Source: Steroidobacteraceae bacterium
GTDB taxonomy: Bacteria; Pseudomonadota; Gammaproteobacteria; Steroidobacterales; Steroidobacteraceae
Assembly (NCBI GenBank): GCA_025451275.1
Contig: JANWKR010000056.1
Span: forward strand, 1-33,408
Direction of reading: 5' to 3'
Length of the DNA: 33,408 nt
The position numbers and the translations under genes are program-made. This document shows positions 8,873 through 28,871 of this stretch, in pieces; within the stretch, counting starts at the first letter, position 1, and each line of letters starts with the position of its first letter. A model generated the notes under the pieces. That model was not told the origin of the DNA. It was given only the letters and a program-made list of their open reading frames with translations, and did not search any database.

Positions 8873-9046
8873 GGCAACTCTCCCGCTTGCGACACGGGAG
8901 CAGTGTTGGCTGGCACGGCGCGGGTGGCGCGGGCGCAAAAGTGCCGGCGCGGCGAATAATTCTGGCGAATTGTGGCAGCGGCAGTGCGACCTGCGTCGCG
9001 CGCACGGCCGTGGCAGCAGGCGCGCGCAGCCTGTAGCCTTGAGCGC

Positions 9047-9736
9047 ATGAAACGCCTCATCGCCATCGTCGAAGACGAGGCCGCGCTGCGTGACAACTAC
9101 GCGGCCGCGTTCACGCGCGATGGCTTCGCGGTGCGCGGCTACGCCAACCGCGCGCAGGCCCTGGCGGCCTTCGGCACGCGCCTGCCGGACCTGGCGATCA
9201 TCGACATCTCGCTCGAGGACGAGCCCGAGGGCGGCTTCGAGTTGTGCCGGCAGCTGCGTGCCATGTCGGCGGAGCTGCCGATCATCTTCCTCACCGCGCG
9301 CGACAGCGAGCTCGACGCGGTTTCGGGCCTGCGGCTCGGCGCCGACGACTTCCTCACCAAGGACCTGAGTCTGGCGCACCTGTCGGCGCGCGTGCACGCG
9401 CTGTTCCGCCGCGTCGATGCACTGCGCCAGCCCGAGAGCGCCGAGGAGCTGCTGCGCCGCGGCCCGCTCACGCTCGATGCCGAGCGCATGCAGGCGCAGT
9501 GGGACGGGCAGGTGGTGCTGCTGTCGCTGACCGAGTTCTGGATCGTGCACGCGCTGGCGCGTCATCCCGGCCACGTGCGCAACCGCCAGCAGCTGATGGA
9601 CGCCGCCAGCGTGGTGCTGGACGACAACACCATCACCTCGCACGTGAAACGCATCCGGCGCAAGTTCCAGGCGCTCGACCCCCGGTTTGACGCCCTGCAG
9701 ACCGTCTACGGTATGGGCTATCGCTGGGTCGAATAG
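9047..9736 (+). CDS. pdsR: Response regulator of the proteobacterial dedicated sortase system
   Basis: A 229-residue OmpR-type regulator. The receiver domain (about 1-120) has the acidic pair Glu9-Asp10, phosphoacceptor Asp53 (LAIIDISL), the Thr of FLTARD and the Lys of DDFLTKD. The C-terminal winged helix (about 130-229) contains TLTEFWIVHALARHPGHV-like sequence and TITSHVKRIRRKFQ, followed by TVYGMGYRW. These stretches match my memory of the marine/proteobacterial dedicated sortase response regulator family (TIGR03787). The ATG at 9047 was chosen because it directly precedes the first beta strand (KRLIAIVED). It is 9 nt upstream of its partner kinase and clearly co-transcribed. No sortase or sortase-substrate gene is present in the window. 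Confidence 0.85.
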   Translation: MKRLIAIVEDEAALRDNYAAAFTRDGFAVRGYANRAQALAAFGTRLPDLAIIDISLEDEPEGGFELCRQLRAMSAELPIIFLTARDSELDAVSGLRLGADDFLTKDLSLAHLSARVHALFRRVDALRQPESAEELLRRGPLTLDAERMQAQWDGQVVLLSLTEFWIVHALARHPGHVRNRQQLMDAASVVLDDNTITSHVKRIRRKFQALDPRFDALQTVYGMGYRWVE

Positions 9737-9745
9737 CGGCGCGCG

Positions 9746-11764
9746 ATGTCCCTGCGCCTGAAGCTGCTGCTGCTCGGACTTGCGACCCTGGTGCTGCCGT
9801 GGGGCGGCTGCCGCTACGCCCGCGAGATGGAGTCAGCGCTGCGCGAGGGCGAGGCCAACTCGCTCCAGGCCGTGTCGCAGACCATCGCCGCATCGCTGCA
9901 GGGGCGCACCGACCTGTTGTACCGCGCGCCGCCCCCGCCCGCCGAGGCGGCCGACGAGCCGCAGCCGGACAGCGGCGCGCAGCAGGCGACCGCCCAGGCC
10001 TTCGACAAGCCCGGCCCCGATGACCTCGAGCCGCTGGCACTCACGGCGGCGCCGCTGCTGGACGGCTACGGCGATGACTGGCCGCACCAGCCCGACGCGT
10101 GGACGGGTTTCAAGAAGGACGAGCATCACCACTTCGCGGTGCTGAGCGGTGTCTACGAGCGCATGCTGTACGTGTTGCTCGAGGTGAACGACGAGCACCC
10201 GCTGTACGACGCGCCGGGCACCAACACGCTGGATGCGGCGACCTTCGGCGACCGCGTGTGGCTCGGCTTCGACGATGCCCAGGGCGAGCAGCATCAGGTG
10301 TTCATCTCCGCCACCGGACCCGGCTCGGTGAGCGCGCGGCGCATCGAGAGCGGCGAGTACGGCCAGCGCAGCGCGCCGGTCGAGCCGCGCATCCGCGGCG
10401 CCTGGCAGCCGAGCCGCGACGGCTACCGCATCGAGCTGCGCGTGCCGCTGTCCATGATCGGCCACAGCTTCGGCATCCTGGTCGACGACCGCGACGCGCG
10501 CGGCGCGGCGCCGGTCAGCTACGGCACGCTGCGCAGCGACGACCTGCACACCCTCGGGCGCCTGATCGTCGCCTCGCCCGAGCTCAGCCCGTACCTGACG
10601 CAGTTCCTGCAGCCGGGCCTGAAGCTCGCGGTCAGCTCGCCCGCCGGGCGGGTGCTGGCGCGTGCGGATGCACTGGCGCGGCCGCTGACACTCGGCCGCG
10701 AGACCCCGGTCCTGGCGAGCCTCTACCGGCGCTTCGTCGACCGGCCGGGCGAGCGGCAGGTGCTCGAGTCGACCGCGCCCATCTACGACCGCGATCACGC
10801 CGCCGTGATCGGCAGCCTCGAGGTCACGCAGACCGCCGACCGCTGGATCCGGCTGCGCGATCACGCCCTGACGCGCATGCTCACCTTCACCCTCGCGACG
10901 AGCCTCGTGGCGGTGGTGGCGATGTTCGCATTCGCCGCGTGGCTGGCGCTGCGCCTGGCACGCCTGCGCAGCGCCAGCGAGTCCGCGCTCACGCGCTCGG
11001 GCCTGGTCACGAGCTTCCCCGAGACCGAGGCGCGCGACGAGCTCGGCGACGTCGCCCGCAGCTTCTCGACGCTGCTCGCGCGCCTCAACGAGTACACCAG
11101 CTACCTGCGGACGCTCGCCGGCAAGCTGGCACACGAGATCCGCACGCCGCTCACCATCGTGCGCTCCTCGCTCGACAACCTGGACAGCGAGCCGGTCGGC
11201 GAGGAGGCGCGGGCCTACCTGACCCGCGCCCGCCAGGGGAGCGAGCGGCTGAACGCCATCCTGCTCGCCATGGGCGCGGCGACCCGGGTCGAGGAAGCCA
11301 TCGGCGGGGCGGAGCGCGTCACCTTCGATCTGGTGCCATTGCTCGGCTCCGCGGTGGCCGCCTACCGCGGCGCGTTCCCGGGGCGCGAGTTCCTGGCCGA
11401 GCTGCCCCCCGGCCCGGTGAGCCTGAACGGCGCCCCGGACCTCATCGTGCAGCTGCTCGACAAGCTCATCGACAACGCGGTGGATTTCAGCCCGGCGGGC
11501 GCGCGTATCACGGTCCGGCTGCACCTCGAGCCCCAGGCGGCGCTCATCGAGGTCGAAAACCCGGGCCCGCCCCTGCCCCTGCACGTCGAAGGCCGGCTGT
11601 TCGAGTCGCTGTGGCAGTCCCGGCCCGATGGGGACAGCCGCCCCCATTTCGGGCTCGGACTTTACATAGTGCGGCTGATCGCCGAATTCCACGGGGGCGA
11701 GGCCGCCGCCCGCAACCTCGAGGACGGGAGCGGAGTACGGGTCAGCGTCCGGCTCGCCCGCTGA
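9746..11764 (+). CDS. pdsS: Membrane sensor histidine kinase of the dedicated sortase system
   Basis: A 672-residue sensor kinase. Helix one is at about residues 4-20 (KLLLLGLATLVLPWGG) and a second at about 378-402 (MLTFTLATSLVAVVAMFAF), enclosing a periplasmic region of about 350 residues. That region contains a segment like a CBM9/DOMON-type beta-sandwich (LDGYGDDWPH, GDRVWLGFDD, YRIELRVPLSMIG). The dimerisation/phosphotransfer domain has His463 in LAHEIRTPLTIV, and the ATPase domain has the N box DKLIDNAVDFSP and G box FGLGLYIVRLIAEFHGG. The overall plan fits the dedicated sortase histidine kinase family (TIGR03785), paired with the adjacent regulator. The periplasmic module suggests it senses a glycan or cell-surface ligand (inference). 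Confidence 0.85.
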   Translation: MSLRLKLLLLGLATLVLPWGGCRYAREMESALREGEANSLQAVSQTIAASLQGRTDLLYRAPPPPAEAADEPQPDSGAQQATAQAFDKPGPDDLEPLALTAAPLLDGYGDDWPHQPDAWTGFKKDEHHHFAVLSGVYERMLYVLLEVNDEHPLYDAPGTNTLDAATFGDRVWLGFDDAQGEQHQVFISATGPGSVSARRIESGEYGQRSAPVEPRIRGAWQPSRDGYRIELRVPLSMIGHSFGILVDDRDARGAAPVSYGTLRSDDLHTLGRLIVASPELSPYLTQFLQPGLKLAVSSPAGRVLARADALARPLTLGRETPVLASLYRRFVDRPGERQVLESTAPIYDRDHAAVIGSLEVTQTADRWIRLRDHALTRMLTFTLATSLVAVVAMFAFAAWLALRLARLRSASESALTRSGLVTSFPETEARDELGDVARSFSTLLARLNEYTSYLRTLAGKLAHEIRTPLTIVRSSLDNLDSEPVGEEARAYLTRARQGSERLNAILLAMGAATRVEEAIGGAERVTFDLVPLLGSAVAAYRGAFPGREFLAELPPGPVSLNGAPDLIVQLLDKLIDNAVDFSPAGARITVRLHLEPQAALIEVENPGPPLPLHVEGRLFESLWQSRPDGDSRPHFGLGLYIVRLIAEFHGGEAAARNLEDGSGVRVSVRLAR

Positions 11765-12301: not shown

Positions 12302-18179
<5,878 letters not shown>

Positions 18180-18228
18180 AGTGATGATCCGGTGGAACGG
18201 GCAGCCCACGTCGGTGCCGCGGACTTGC

Positions 18229-19923: not shown

Positions 19924-20919
19924 TCAGGGCGGCTCGCGGGTGGTGAGCGGCACGGTCAGCAGCTGCGTGCGGCGCACGATGCCGAGCTCCAGCGTCGTAC
20001 CGGGCGGCACCCGCCCGAGCAGCCGGTGCAGCGCATCGATGCCGTCGACCACCTGACCGCCCACGCCGACGATCAGGTCGCCGGGGTGCAGGTCGGAGGC
20101 CGCGGCCGGGCCCTCGCTCTCGCGTGACAGCACCTCGACCGCCTGCGTGGCGCTGAGGCCGAGCGCGCGCACCAGGCGCGTGTCGAGCGGCCGGTCGCGC
20201 GCGGCGACTCCGAGCCAGGCGCGCCGTACGCGTCCCTGGGTGAGGATCTCGGTCAGCACCCACTGCGCGGTCGCGGCCGGGATGGCGAAGCCGATACCCT
20301 GAGCCATGGCGATGATGGCGGTGTTGATGCCGACCACGCGCCCGGCGGCATCCACGAGCGGGCCGCCAGAGTTGCCGGGATTGAGCGCCGCGGTGTGCTG
20401 CACCACCCCCTCGATGAGGCGCCCCTGGCGACTGCGCAGCGAGCGTCCGAGCCCGCTCACCACCCCCGCCGACACCGTCGACTCGAAGCCGAGCGGGTTA
20501 CCGACCGCGACCACCAGCTGCCCGGCGCGCAGGCGCTGGCCGCTCGCGAGCTGGGCGTACGGCAGCGCCCCGGCCTGCGCGCGCAGCACGGCAAGATCGG
20601 TGGCGGGGTCACGCCCGGCGACGACGGCCGGCACGCTGCGGCCGTCGACGAAGGTCACGCGCGCCTCGCTCACCCGCTGCACGACGTGCTCGTTGGTGAG
20701 CAGGTAGCCGTCCGGGGTCACGACCACGCCCGAGCCGGCGCCGCCACGCGCCTGCGCGGCCTCGGCCGCACCGCCGACGTAGACGCTCACCACCGCCGGC
20801 CCGACCTGGTCGACGGCGCCGACCACGGCGGCCGAGTAGGCATCGAGCGCCGCGGCGGGCGGCTGCACGTCCGGCGCCGGCTCGCCTGCAGAGGGTTGAT
20901 CCAGCATTCGCGCAGGCAT
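19924..20919 (-). CDS. HtrA/DegP-like S1C serine protease without a signal peptide
   Basis: About 331 residues: a trypsin-like domain followed by one PDZ domain. The catalytic triad is complete, numbered from the ATG at 20919: His78 in TNEHVV, Asp108 in ATDLAVL, Ser184 in NPGNSGGPL. The usual QTDAAINPGNSGGPL is here QHTAALNPGNSGGPL, so the conserved Asp of the QTDA stretch is absent. The PDZ region begins near AWLGVAAR and includes DLHPGDLIVGVGGQVVDG. Unlike DegP or DegS, there is no signal peptide or anchor; the start is Pro/Ala-rich. Upstream in-frame alternatives are a TTG at 20943 and an ATG at 20907, none with a good ribosome site and none adding a hydrophobic segment. It may act in the cytoplasm. 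It is divergent from the antiporter. Confidence 0.88.
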   Translation of the reverse strand: MPARMLDQPSAGEPAPDVQPPAAALDAYSAAVVGAVDQVGPAVVSVYVGGAAEAAQARGGAGSGVVVTPDGYLLTNEHVVQRVSEARVTFVDGRSVPAVVAGRDPATDLAVLRAQAGALPYAQLASGQRLRAGQLVVAVGNPLGFESTVSAGVVSGLGRSLRSRQGRLIEGVVQHTAALNPGNSGGPLVDAAGRVVGINTAIIAMAQGIGFAIPAATAQWVLTEILTQGRVRRAWLGVAARDRPLDTRLVRALGLSATQAVEVLSRESEGPAAASDLHPGDLIVGVGGQVVDGIDALHRLLGRVPPGTTLELGIVRRTQLLTVPLTTREPP

Positions 20920-20987
20920 GGGGACCGGTGCCGGCAAACTCAAGGGGTGAAGCCGGCGACGGATTCCTGCGAGAATCGGCCGGCCGC

Positions 20988-25221: not shown

Positions 25222-26055
25222 TCAGCGCGGCAGCACGGGCACGCAGGACTGGGACTGCTCCTTGAGGGAATCGCACAGCGCGCGTGCCTGGGCTTCGCCG
25301 GCTGCGGCGACCTGCAGGCGGTAGAGCTGGCCCGAACCGGTGCTGGCCTGGACGATGCGCGGCGACAGGCCGCCGAGCTCCGCGCCGAAGCGCTCGTGCA
25401 GGCGCTGCCACTCGCGGCCGGCGCTGGCGGGACTGCCGAAGGCACCGAGCTGAACGCCGTAGCCACCGTCCGGGACACCCACGGCATCGGCCGCGACGGG
25501 TGGCGGCTCGGGCGTTGCGGCCGCGAGGCGCACGTCCGCCGGCATCGCGGCTTCACCGGGCTGCGCCAGCTCCCCCACCGCGGCGCGGGCCGGGGCCACG
25601 GCCGGCTCGATCACGCCGGCGGCGGGCAGCGGCGCGGGGGCCACCACGCCGGTCGCCAGCTGCAGGGCGCGCACGCCGGTGCGCGCGACGGCCGCCTCGG
25701 CGGCGGTCTGCGGCGCGATACGCGGCGCGGAGCCGAGCGCGGAAGCCTCGATGCGGATGCGCGCCTCCTCGGACCAGTGCCCGCTCGGGTGGTGGGCGAG
25801 GAACTCCCGGTAGGCGTCCACGGTTCCGACCGTACCGGCGTGCTGCCAGTCGCGCTGCTCGGCCAGCTGCGCGATGCGCTCGCGCGCCTGGGCGGCGAGC
25901 TCGCTGTCGGCGTGCTGTTCGAGGAAGCGGCCATAGGCCTCGGTCGTGTCGGCGGACTCGGCCGAGCGCCAGTCCTGCTGCTCGCGGCTGCAGGCCGCGC
26001 AGGCAATCCCCAGAAGTGTGATCAGTGCCACCCTTCCTGCCCGGAATGTGATCAT
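25222..26055 (-). CDS. SPOR-domain lipoprotein with tandem helical repeats
   Basis: About 277 residues. An N-terminal signal (ALITLLGIACAAC) ends in two cysteines that suggest lipoprotein processing, although neither site fits the lipobox perfectly. Two repeats follow: RDWRSAES with AYGRFLEQH and ARERI, then RDWQHAGT with AYREFLAHH and ARIRI, resembling half-TPR repeats. A Pro/Ala-rich linker of about 100 residues leads to a C-terminal SPOR domain (YGVQLGAFGSPASAGREW to LYRLQVAAAGEAQARALC), the fold that binds denuded peptidoglycan glycan at division sites. The ATG at 26055 has AAGGA with 8-nt spacing; the upstream ATG at 26064 has none at a proper distance. It is divergent from a bactofilin. 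Its transcript probably ends at the terminator at 24992. Confidence 0.85.
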   Translation of the reverse strand: MITFRAGRVALITLLGIACAACSREQQDWRSAESADTTEAYGRFLEQHADSELAAQARERIAQLAEQRDWQHAGTVGTVDAYREFLAHHPSGHWSEEARIRIEASALGSAPRIAPQTAAEAAVARTGVRALQLATGVVAPAPLPAAGVIEPAVAPARAAVGELAQPGEAAMPADVRLAAATPEPPPVAADAVGVPDGGYGVQLGAFGSPASAGREWQRLHERFGAELGGLSPRIVQASTGSGQLYRLQVAAAGEAQARALCDSLKEQSQSCVPVLPR

Positions 26056-26116
26056 GGTCGGCATCCTTGTAGGACCAGCTCCGTATTATGACCCGGCGCA
26101 CCCCGCGGAGCACCGG

Positions 26117-26515
26117 ATGAGCGAAACCCTCAAGCGCAGACTGATAGACCAGATCGGCGATTCGCCGACTTTCGTCGCCGAAGGCTCGCGGCTGACCGGC
26201 GACGTCGAGAGCGCCGGTCCGCTCGTGGTCTGCGGCGCCATCCGCGGCGACGGTCGCGTCGGCGGCGCGCTGCGCATGGCCGTGACCGCCGAGTGGGACG
26301 GCGAGATCCACGCGCGCGCGGCCGTGATCGCCGGGCGCATCAGCGGCCGGCTCGTGGTCGAGGACAAGCTCGAGGTTGGCGCGACCGCCGTGCTGCGGGC
26401 GGACATCGTGGCGCGCAGCATCGCCGTGGCCAAGGGCGCCATCATCGACGGGGTGGTCACCGTCACCAGCGGCGAGCCGGTGCTCGAGTTCGAGGAAAAG
26501 CGCGCCGCGCGCTGA
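26117..26515 (+). CDS. Bactofilin (polymer-forming cytoskeletal protein)
   Basis: A 132-residue bactofilin-family protein. These polymerise without nucleotide and scaffold cell-wall enzymes at the membrane. The core (about 20-120) is a chain of short Gly- and Val-rich turns typical of the beta-helix: SRLTGDVESAGPLVVCGAIRG, GEIHARAAVIAGRISG, VEDKLEVGATAVLRADI and SIAVAKGAIIDGVV. The short charged N-terminus (SETLKRRLIDQIG) may be the membrane-targeting part. The ATG at 26117 has GGAG with 7- to 8-nt spacing. It lies 61 nt from the divergent SPOR lipoprotein start; both concern peptidoglycan, so common regulation is plausible (inference). Confidence 0.88.
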   Translation: MSETLKRRLIDQIGDSPTFVAEGSRLTGDVESAGPLVVCGAIRGDGRVGGALRMAVTAEWDGEIHARAAVIAGRISGRLVVEDKLEVGATAVLRADIVARSIAVAKGAIIDGVVTVTSGEPVLEFEEKRAAR

Positions 26516-26520
26516 GCGTC

Positions 26521-27573
26521 TCAGGAGTTCTCGCCCAGCACCTCGGCCTCCACCGGCGTCCCGGCACGCGTGGCCTCCGCCCCGAGCTGCCTGAGGATCA
26601 GCCTCTCGAGCCAGGTCTCCCCACCCAGCCGCTCGAAGAAGCCGCAGTGCCCGCCCCGGCGCGTCACGGTCAGCGTCAGCGCCGGCGGCCGCGCCAGCTG
26701 CGCCAGTCCCGCCGCCGGGATGATCGGATCGTCGAGCGAGGTGATGATGCGCGCGGGCACGGCGAGGCCGGCCAGCCGCGCGCCGGTGATCGCATAGCCC
26801 TCGAGATAGTCATCGAGCGTCGGGTACTCGGTGTGGGCGCGCACCAGCTCCGCGGTCATGAGCTTCAGGTCGCGCCGCCGCGCGAGCGGGCCGAAGTCAT
26901 ACGCGTCCGGCCAGGCGGCCTGCTTGCGGCGCAGGCTGCGCAGCCACTTGCGTACGAAGTAGCGCTCGTAGCCGGGAATGCCGTTCTGCAGCGCCACCAG
27001 GGTCGCGGCCGGATCGAGCACCGGCGACACCGCGATCACCCCGGCGAGCTGCAGCTGCGCGGGCCCCGCCTGCGCCGCGACCCGCAGCACGAAGTTGCCG
27101 CCGAGCGAGAAGCCGATCAGGTACGGCGGCCGGCCCGGATAGCGCTGCTGCACGGCGCGCACCGCGCCGACCACCTCGGGCAGGCGGCAGGAGTGGAACA
27201 GGTCCTGGTTGAGGTGATGGGTCTCGCCGTGATCGCGCAGGTTGAGGCGCAGCACGTCGAAGCCGCGCGCGAACAGCAGCGCGGCGAGTGACAGCACGTA
27301 GTAGGAGTCGGCACTGCCCTCCCAGCCGTGCAGCAGCACCACCGGGCGGCCGTTGCCCGCCGGCGGGCTCGACAGGAAGCACTGCAGGCGCACGCCCGCA
27401 CCGCAGTCGAGCAGCAGCTCGCGCGCCGCGGCGAGCAGCGGCGCCGCACGCCGCAGGACGCGCCCGCGCCGCCAGCCCGTGCTCGCCAGCATCGACTGCA
27501 CATGGTGGTTGCCCAGCCAGCGCGCCGGGCGGAAGTCATCGTCAGCGGTGCGCTCGGGCGTATTTCCGTTCAA
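26521..27573 (-). CDS. YheT-family alpha/beta hydrolase
   Basis: A 350-residue alpha/beta hydrolase of the YheT/ABHD1-3 group, whose physiological substrate in bacteria is uncertain (lipid esters are likely). It begins with the family's FRPARWLGNHHVQSM. The oxyanion region is VVLLHGWEGSADSYY, the nucleophile serine sits in IGFSLGGNFVL, the acid in TSLDDPIIP and the histidine in RRGGHCGFF. The only start before the conserved FRPARW block is TTG at 27573, which overlaps the upstream gene's TGA in the sequence TTGA, so translation is probably coupled to the receiver-domain gene. It ends 5 nt from the bactofilin stop, convergently. Confidence 0.92.
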   Translation of the reverse strand: MNGNTPERTADDDFRPARWLGNHHVQSMLASTGWRRGRVLRRAAPLLAAARELLLDCGAGVRLQCFLSSPPAGNGRPVVLLHGWEGSADSYYVLSLAALLFARGFDVLRLNLRDHGETHHLNQDLFHSCRLPEVVGAVRAVQQRYPGRPPYLIGFSLGGNFVLRVAAQAGPAQLQLAGVIAVSPVLDPAATLVALQNGIPGYERYFVRKWLRSLRRKQAAWPDAYDFGPLARRRDLKLMTAELVRAHTEYPTLDDYLEGYAITGARLAGLAVPARIITSLDDPIIPAAGLAQLARPPALTLTVTRRGGHCGFFERLGGETWLERLILRQLGAEATRAGTPVEAEVLGENS

Positions 27574-28871
27574 CGCACGCGGATCTCGACGCGATTGTTG
27601 GCGCTGGCGGCGCGGTTCCAGTCGCCGGCGTTGACCTCGCTCCCGGCCGGCGGATACGGGCTCAGCACGCTCGCCGGGTCACCCACCGACACCTGCGCGT
27701 CGAGCGCGCCGTGGGTGGAAGCGCGGATGTCGCCGATCAGGTTGGCGAGCCCCAGCGGGATGCGCTGCGTGGGCGACAGCGCCTCCTCGGACGGATTGCC
27801 GACGATGTCGCACTTGGCGAGCGGCGTCTCATCGGGCGCGGGCGAGTAGCCGTCCACCGTGTTGCCGACCAGGCAGAAGCGCCCGGCGAAGGTCTTGATG
27901 TCGGCCACACCGGCGACCTTCTGCTTCGCCAGGCGATACAGCAGCTGGCGGATGGTCTCCAGACGGGCACCGCCGAGGGCGTCGGCGCCGTAGGGCACCG
28001 GCACCACGATCGGCTTGTTGTCGGTCGGCAGGGCGCTGCGGGTCGCGCCCGGGGCACGCGGCGCCTCCGGCGTCCCGGCCGGCGCGACCGCGGTGGCGGC
28101 GAACGGTGTGGCCTGGCGCTGACGCAGCTGCGTCAGCTGCGCGTCCATGTCCTCGAGCAGCTGCACGCTGCGCCACCACAGCGCGCTGCTGAGGAGCGCG
28201 ATGGCGAGAGCGGCACAGGCGACGATCCAGGCCCACGGCGGGGTGAGCGGGCGCGGCGGCGGCGGCGCGTCCTCGGCCGGCGGCGGCGGCAGCGCCTCGA
28301 GCAGCAGCGCGCGCACCTCGGCGGTGATGCGGTCGGTCTGCGTATCGACCCCGGCCACGAGCGCGCGGCGCAGCTCCGCGAAATGCTCGCGCAGCGCCGT
28401 GTCGGTGAGCGCCTTGGCGTTGGCGGGCAGCCCCGGCTCGCCGGCCTCGACCGCCACGTTGACGGGAGTGAAGGTCGACTGCTCGCTGCTGCGGCGGTCG
28501 GGCACCAGGTGCAGCTGGTACAGCACCTTGGAGACGTCCGTGGGCTTGATCTGCTTGGGCAGCACGCCGACCGCGCCGAGCGCGCGCGCCTGCCCGAGGT
28601 ACAGCTCACCTTCCTGCGAGGTGTACATCATGATGGGGATGGTGGCGGTGCGCGGGTCGTTCTTGATCGCCTGCACCGCCTGCAGGCCGTCCATGCCCGG
28701 CATCATGTGATCCATGAAGATCACGTCGGGGCGGTTGTTGGTGAGGTAGTCGATCGCCGCTTCGGCGTTCTCGGCGGCATCGACGTCGATGTCGTACTTC
28801 TCGAGCACGCGGGCCAGAAACAGTCGCGCGGACTTGGAGTCGTCCACGATCAAGGCCCGTTTTGCCCCCAT
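27570..28871 (-). CDS. Membrane-tethered receiver-domain protein with a C-terminal (probably periplasmic) domain
   Basis: A 433-residue protein with an unusual plan. Residues 1-125 are a complete CheY-like receiver: Asp10-Asp11, phosphoacceptor Asp54 (VIFMDHMMPGMDG), Thr84 and Lys106. A linker rich in acidic helices and then prolines (about 130-212) leads to one transmembrane helix (WAWIVACAALAIALLSSALWW, about 213-233) and a short coiled-coil-like stretch (LLEDMDAQLTQLRQRQ). The C-terminal 180 residues contain two cysteines (GRFCLVGN and LAKCDIVGN) that could pair outside the cytoplasm, and end NNRVEIRVR, reminiscent of OmpA-like domains. There is no DNA-binding or enzymatic output. The ATG at 28871 has GGGAGCGG upstream. 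No kinase is adjacent. It is co-transcribed with the YheT hydrolase. Confidence 0.85.
   Translation of the reverse strand: MGAKRALIVDDSKSARLFLARVLEKYDIDVDAAENAEAAIDYLTNNRPDVIFMDHMMPGMDGLQAVQAIKNDPRTATIPIMMYTSQEGELYLGQARALGAVGVLPKQIKPTDVSKVLYQLHLVPDRRSSEQSTFTPVNVAVEAGEPGLPANAKALTDTALREHFAELRRALVAGVDTQTDRITAEVRALLLEALPPPPAEDAPPPPRPLTPPWAWIVACAALAIALLSSALWWRSVQLLEDMDAQLTQLRQRQATPFAATAVAPAGTPEAPRAPGATRSALPTDNKPIVVPVPYGADALGGARLETIRQLLYRLAKQKVAGVADIKTFAGRFCLVGNTVDGYSPAPDETPLAKCDIVGNPSEEALSPTQRIPLGLANLIGDIRASTHGALDAQVSVGDPASVLSPYPPAGSEVNAGDWNRAASANNRVEIRVR

Follow-up and report, generated by a model that had tools for sequence, protein, structure and literature searches.

In the textbook account, a response regulator is a switch that acts within the cell, its output being DNA binding, enzymatic activity or protein binding. 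The stator subunits MotB and PomB keep their N-terminus in the cytoplasm and continue through one membrane helix into a periplasmic OmpA-like domain. Precedent for inside-out signalling via a membrane protein is given by LapD, a c-di-GMP receptor in which a regulatory domain in the cytoplasm is linked through the inner membrane to an output domain in the periplasm (available sections of PMC3032545). Inside-out signalling by LapD is also described in the available sections of PMC3032553, the periplasmic region of a hybrid kinase is likened to that of LapD in those of PMC11481889, and the phrase “periplasmic output domain” is used in those of PMC4409338. The 2005 census by Galperin left out response regulators by its own account (PMC1183210, in the sections available). 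In the literature searched (most subscription papers lay outside its scope), no description of a receiver with a periplasmic OmpA-like domain was found and the term “membrane-bound response regulator” was absent.

The gene analyzed here lies in a 33,408-nucleotide stretch of a Steroidobacteraceae genome (GCA_025451275.1, contig JANWKR010000056.1, positions 1 to 33,408; hereafter the window). An earlier note, made from the letters alone, had proposed at 27570-28871 a response-regulator receiver tied through a membrane helix to an extracytoplasmic domain, and the coordinates, domain order and motifs that it gave all proved correct; the strand is minus. The gene runs from an ATG at 28871 to a stop at 27570-27572 and encodes 433 amino acids, the ATG being placed there because close homologues have the same start (MGAKRALIVDD). 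Its parts and immediate neighbor are as follows:

27570..28871, minus strand: whole gene, with receiver, linker helix, membrane helix and OmpA-like domain (433 aa plus stop)
28506..28871, minus strand: receiver domain, residues 1-122, with D10, D11, D54, T84 and K106 (Pfam PF00072, AF2)
28293..28418, minus strand: predicted linker helix, residues 152-193 (AF2 model)
28158..28235, minus strand: membrane helix, residues about 213-238 (hydropathy, family conservation and controls)
28020..28157, minus strand: remainder of the membrane helix, then a low-confidence linker rich in Ala and Pro, residues 239-284 (AF2)
27573..28019, minus strand: OmpA-like domain, predicted extracytoplasmic, residues 285-433 (AF2, Foldseek, VIA-align)
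27873..27875, minus strand: Cys333, first of the conserved cysteine pair (invariant, 43 rows and 42/42)
27810..27812, minus strand: Cys354, second of the conserved cysteine pair (invariant, 43 rows and 42/42)
27615..27620, minus strand: invariant Trp418-Asn419, upstream of the NNRVEIRVR end (42/42)
26521..27573, minus strand: neighboring ORF of a YheT-type alpha/beta hydrolase, whose start overlaps the receiver-gene stop by TTGA

The N-terminal domain shares with receivers of the CheY/PhoB type (PF00072) both their fold and all of their phosphorylation residues. Pfam Response_reg spans residues 7-115 (E = 3.7e-25; 88.7 bits against a cut-off of 30.2), block means of AF2 pLDDT across the receiver were 87-98, and D10, D11, D54, T84 and K106 are present in the sequence, as had been claimed. 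Among 43 aligned family members (alignment A2, in which L047, L081 and L087 begin inside the receiver), the three aspartates were retained wherever a letter was present (D10 and D11 in 40/40 each, D54 in 42/42), K106 was found in 43/43 and T84 in 42/43, with one Ser. Unlike receivers of the CheY/PhoB type, the window protein has no DNA-binding, enzymatic or stand-alone output and instead runs on through the membrane. The other four Pfam matches (E ≤ 1) fell below their cut-offs and included no DNA-binding or enzymatic regulator output, which upholds the earlier claim on this point; cREC_REC (PF20274) reached 18.8 bits against a curated cut-off of 27. Neither EAL nor HAMP, nor any c-di-GMP domain, appeared among Pfam matches to E = 1, so that where LapD has EAL and HAMP the window protein has a receiver and one helix. 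NCBIfam searches with alignment A2 returned many receiver models, and the window protein was below the cut-off for all of the best 25 shown. Within its own genome (an 81%-complete assembly), the 21 protein matches comprised this gene and 20 that covered the receiver part only.

Beyond the receiver, the full-length AF2 model comprised a low-confidence stretch (130-151), a helix at 152-193, a second helix at 213-253, another low-confidence stretch (257-277, pLDDT under 50) and a domain at 288-433 (pLDDT mostly 90-98); because pTM was 0.43, the model does not fix how the domains are arranged. The linker had been called acidic, and it is, but weakly so (13 D/E against 9 K/R). The strongest hydrophobic 19-mer was found at residues 214-232 (mean hydropathy 2.11), and a between-domain peak of at least 1.6 was present in 42 of the 43 aligned members (the exception, L073, reached 1.29), compared with 0/40 complete receivers (highest 1.33) and 0/43 C-terminal domains (highest 1.34), in support of a single membrane helix. 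Exactly two cysteines follow the helix in 43/43 members and none precede it in 34/43, which at the level of sequence is the pattern of an oxidising compartment; Cys333 and Cys354, the pair that had been pointed out, may form a disulfide. Flanking charges (charge bias) do not discriminate between topologies, and placement of the C-terminus outside therefore rests on the cytoplasmic receiver and the cysteine pattern. Calculation thus supports that part of the earlier interpretation that put the receiver inside, one helix in the membrane and an OmpA-like domain outside; the suggestion that this domain binds peptidoglycan did not find support at the residue level (see below).

The outer domain does exist, but at nearer 150 residues than the 180 originally estimated, as it folds at about 288-433 after the low-confidence stretch. 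It was modelled alone (residues 283-433; AF2 pLDDT 93.2, pTM 0.85) because fold searches with the full-length model gave receivers at the top. Against the PDB, the best 50 of 314 Foldseek matches were all of OmpA-like type by title or by kind of protein (OmpA-like, Pal, MotB, PomB, MotS, YfiB, TagL/TssL, PorE and flagellar T-ring proteins), with a best E of 3.6e-3, a probability of 0.99 and TM scores of about 0.3-0.6; none reached E ≤ 0.001. The best 50 of 220 chains (Z ≥ 2) in VIA-align were likewise of OmpA-like type, with a best Z of 6.4 over 111 residues (rmsd 3.5) and none at Z ≥ 8, the value under which the program warns that a score may reflect merely a common arrangement. No competing fold was found among the best 50 of either comparison. 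The domain is therefore predicted to be OmpA-like in fold, with modest scores, in agreement with what its C-terminal end (NNRVEIRVR, confirmed in the sequence) had been taken to indicate.

Sequence profiles did not extend this agreement. None of 42 members matched PF00691 at E ≤ 0.1, the C-terminal domain was without a relevant Pfam match, and a PDB sequence search with its profile gave three hits (E = 0.57-0.59) that we read as chance. An hhalign comparison with 15 OmpA domains was discarded as proof of kinship: it gave a probability of 8.7% in an end-to-end register, and its score of 23.2 was above that of every one of 60 column shuffles (19.7 at most) yet below that of the reversed profile (26.4), so that the comparison is no evidence on its own. 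In OmpA, a conserved Asp and Arg form the diaminopimelate pocket. D355, directly after Cys354 and aligned with the Asp of the OmpA TD motif, was Asp in 17/42 members, and R370, aligned with the first Arg of LSxRRA, was Arg in 25/42, with Gln in 23/42 at the next position, in a register that was taken from a weak profile alignment and is uncertain by at least one position; the pocket Arg of OmpA presumably corresponds to the position after R370. A conserved diaminopimelate pocket is thus not supported by the aligned sequences, given this uncertain register, and peptidoglycan binding was set aside as the default function because the residues aligned with the pocket vary. Instead, Cys333, Cys354, Ala415, Trp418 and Asn419 were invariant, and Gly321 and Tyr406-Pro407 were conserved in 41/42 each (alignment A3, which leaves out L043). 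The outer domain resembles OmpA-like domains (PF00691: OmpA, Pal, MotB, YfiB) in predicted fold, but it has no Pfam match, varies at the residues that this register aligns with the pocket, inserts additional strands and the two cysteines between its second strand and the helix after it, and has an invariant Trp-Asn. The overall layout is that of MotB and PomB (available sections of PMC9093738), except that the window protein has a receiver where these have a short cytoplasmic tail and that its outer domain is not recognized by Pfam as OmpA. No MotA-type partner was present among the 15 window ORFs scanned.

Searched against 60 genomes, the protein had matches at E ≤ 1e-30 in 26, one of them its own, and members in other families of the same order showed 35-41% identity over most of their length. 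A scan of GTDB contigs recovered, among the matches listed, members from Steroidobacteraceae, Nevskiaceae, Woeseiaceae, Ectothiorhodospiraceae, Thiotrichaceae and Competibacteraceae, as well as from Candidatus Thiodiazotropha and gamma proteobacterium HdN1 (L074), with identity down to about 30%. The matches listed comprised 80 loci, of which 28 (L090-L117) matched as other receivers only; ten short, cut or tail-anchored loci of the remaining 52 were excluded from alignment A2, and some contig-scan and genome-search loci come from the same genomes. Across 370 gammaproteobacterial genomes, 36 matched the whole protein at E ≤ 1e-22 (some by the receiver only), and the C-terminal-domain profile matched 24 at E ≤ 0.01, of which 22 were strong (E = 3.5e-29 or lower) and two weak (G376, with L206, a cut or stop-interrupted member, and G290, read as chance). 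In all 22 genomes with a strong hit, the outer-domain match coincided in contig and position with the receiver already located. Of 299 phylum-wide genomes, four matched the profile: two strongly, within the class, and two weakly, outside it (E = 4.3e-4, judged chance, and E = 5.2e-3). No stand-alone copy of the outer domain was seen among the profile hits; a 173-aa hit (L191) stops at the edge of its locus, 42 bases beyond the match (up to 1,500 were permitted), and was read as a gene cut by the contig end. Chance is also the likely explanation of three further weak hits (L207, L209 and L210). By sequence, this is a real family conserved across Gammaproteobacteria, in which the architecture of receiver, membrane helix and OmpA-like outer domain recurs. 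Selection on its parts was unequal: dN/dS in four pairwise comparisons within the genus ranged from 0.05 to 0.11 in the receiver, from 0.31 to 0.68 in the linker and from 0.22 to 0.58 in the C-terminal domain; the membrane helix gave 0.28 twice, no defined value once and 1.5 for the most distant pair. Purifying selection was therefore strongest in the receiver and the outer domain evolves faster. Recurrent matches in 26/60 genomes together with low dN/dS argue that the ORF is not a chance one.

Our leading interpretation, to which we give a probability of roughly 45%, is that the protein is a membrane-tethered receiver whose phosphorylation alters an outer domain that interacts with the envelope. 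The response regulator would be held in the inner membrane with its N-terminus in and its C-terminus out, and Asp54 would receive its phosphate from a histidine kinase or phosphotransfer protein whose gene lies elsewhere. Phosphorylation would then change the α4-β5-α5 face of the receiver, most likely in how it pairs with a second copy, and we infer that this change would be relayed by way of the linker helix (152-193) and the membrane helix to the disulfide-stabilised OmpA-like domain in the periplasm, altering its binding to a ligand that may be an envelope protein or the wall. Three points led us to rank this inside-out direction first: receivers normally serve as inputs, no copy of the outer domain was seen without this receiver, and helix α4 is conserved with the outer domain. 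The phosphorylation residues kept throughout the family, the strong purifying selection on the receiver, the membrane-helix peak with two cysteines beyond it, the OmpA-like predicted fold and the co-occurrence of both domains in all 22 strong-hit genomes (of 370) all point the same way, as far as calculation can indicate. Against it, no recurrent kinase or envelope partner was recognized among family neighbors (neighbor clusters were read by eye), tail-anchored relatives manage without the outer domain, and, as would be expected of a sensor input, the outer domain changes more quickly in sequence than the receiver does.

These tail-anchored relatives have the same receiver subfamily and a long helical linker, followed by a membrane helix at the extreme C-terminus and no outer domain. 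They were found at 14 loci (L086 from Oleispira, L088 from Ketobacter, L089 from Parendozoicomonas, L139, L141, L143, L144, L145, L176-L179, L181 and L183), and no description of such a receiver class was found in the literature searched. At one of them the tail-anchored receiver lies within a longer open frame (L145:841-3444, minus strand; 897 residues). Since these relatives have no outer domain, tethering alone can suffice, and an alternative that we consider unlikely, if a serious one, is that the outer domain is an anchor or scaffold that merely positions the receiver at the envelope, where a cytoplasmic partner would bind the α4 face in a phosphorylation-gated manner. The 14 loci that keep receiver and membrane helix speak for this explanation, as do two genomes (G322 and G362) that each hold both the OmpA-like and the tail-anchored form, and one locus (L138:1495-2799, plus strand) at which the family receiver and membrane helix lead into an outer sequence of another kind, with two cysteines. 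This sequence had no Pfam match up to E = 1 and no match in the other genomes of the 370 (in a search with the whole protein, which would overlook distant relatives).

The receiver itself bears on this alternative in two directions. In receivers, helix α1 is the usual kinase-docking face and α4 is part of the usual output face. Conservation of α4 was 3.31 bits in outer-domain members (44 rows), 2.39 in tail-anchored forms (14) and 1.40 in other receivers (34), compared with 2.89, 3.26 and 1.53, respectively, for α1, the three sets being of unequal divergence; the α4 motif QARxxGA was present in 35/44 outer-domain members versus 2/14 tail-anchored forms and 0/34 other receivers. High conservation of α4 would suit a cytoplasmic partner, but its fall in the tail-anchored forms is unexpected if both forms share a cytoplasmic output, and the invariant C333, C354, W418 and N419 suggest that the outer domain has a particular binding task and is not just a passive plug. 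The α1 and α4 patterns are consistent, at this level, with one kind of phosphodonor for both forms and a role for α4 tied to the outer domain. In a receiver tree of few columns (28/67 forks open; 70/95 rows after near-identical members were removed), members with the OmpA-like domain were split off together from all other rows in 72% of the bootstrap trees, and of the 14 tail-anchored rows seven were placed with other receivers, five formed their own group and two were unplaced. The tail-anchored rows included L140, which is cut short, and L176 dropped out through a motif filter.

Signalling in the opposite direction, in which the periplasmic domain senses the state of the envelope and alters how the receiver accepts, holds or passes on phosphate, as a regulated phosphate sink or adaptor, seems to us improbable. 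An outer domain that evolves faster than its receiver and that can be replaced, as at L138, does recall the exchangeable sensor domains of membrane kinases, but receivers normally act as inputs, this one carries no fused downstream output, and its constant pairing with one outer domain (22/22 genomes) is unlike the behavior of freely shuffled sensors. Finally, a cytoplasmic C-terminal fold with the hydrophobic stretch buried inside it would be compatible with flanking charges that do not fix topology, but is very improbable given that the stretch is predicted in a long helix (213-253) apart from both domains, is kept in 42/43 members, is followed by exactly two cysteines in 43/43, and precedes a domain whose matches among the best 50 are folds that we take to be extracytoplasmic.

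Should the inside-out interpretation hold, two-component systems would gain a direct route to change the envelope without transcription, and a phosphorylation signal may be sent outward rather than to genes. In its broadest form, which we hold tentatively, the proposal is of a widespread gammaproteobacterial class of response regulators with an output outside the cytoplasm, in which phosphorylation would drive a disulfide-locked OmpA-like domain to grip a wall or envelope ligand. This would be a branch of two-component signalling that works post-translationally and bypasses transcription, alongside a tail-anchored sister class whose phosphodonor would be of the same kind. With members spread this widely, the family can be tested in cultivable relatives.

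The surroundings of the gene were also compared. The coupling to a YheT-type hydrolase that had been reported holds in the window, where the two genes overlap, but is lineage-restricted in the family: of the 47 loci with at least 1.2 kb of downstream sequence, 25 had the hydrolase following on the same strand at a distance of no more than 2.5 kb. The 22 loci without it comprised 19 of the OmpA-like form (27-37% identity to the window protein) and three tail-anchored ones, and because those 19 keep the whole architecture, YheT is not part of the family mechanism and was rejected as a functional partner at the level of a family rule. Neighbors of distant members (presumably GGDEF-EAL-like, PEP-carboxylase-like and AprA-like, judging from their sequences) were likewise rejected as partners, the set not being coherent. 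None of the 15 window ORFs scanned was a histidine kinase adjoining the receiver gene; the only kinase among them belongs to a separate two-component pair with an OmpR-type regulator (8972-11761, plus strand) that ends about 16 kb away. The bactofilin and SPOR genes that the earlier note placed nearby are indeed there, as a SPOR-domain ORF (25222-26064, minus strand) and a bactofilin ORF (25946-26515, plus strand) that overlap in opposite directions, and one of the two starts probably lies further in. Elsewhere in the window are a Trypsin-PDZ protease ORF (19927-20943, minus strand), which we take to be of the periplasmic DegS/HtrA type, and, at 12305-18209 on the minus strand, a glutamate synthase large-subunit gene followed by a pyridine-nucleotide oxidoreductase, probably the small subunit.
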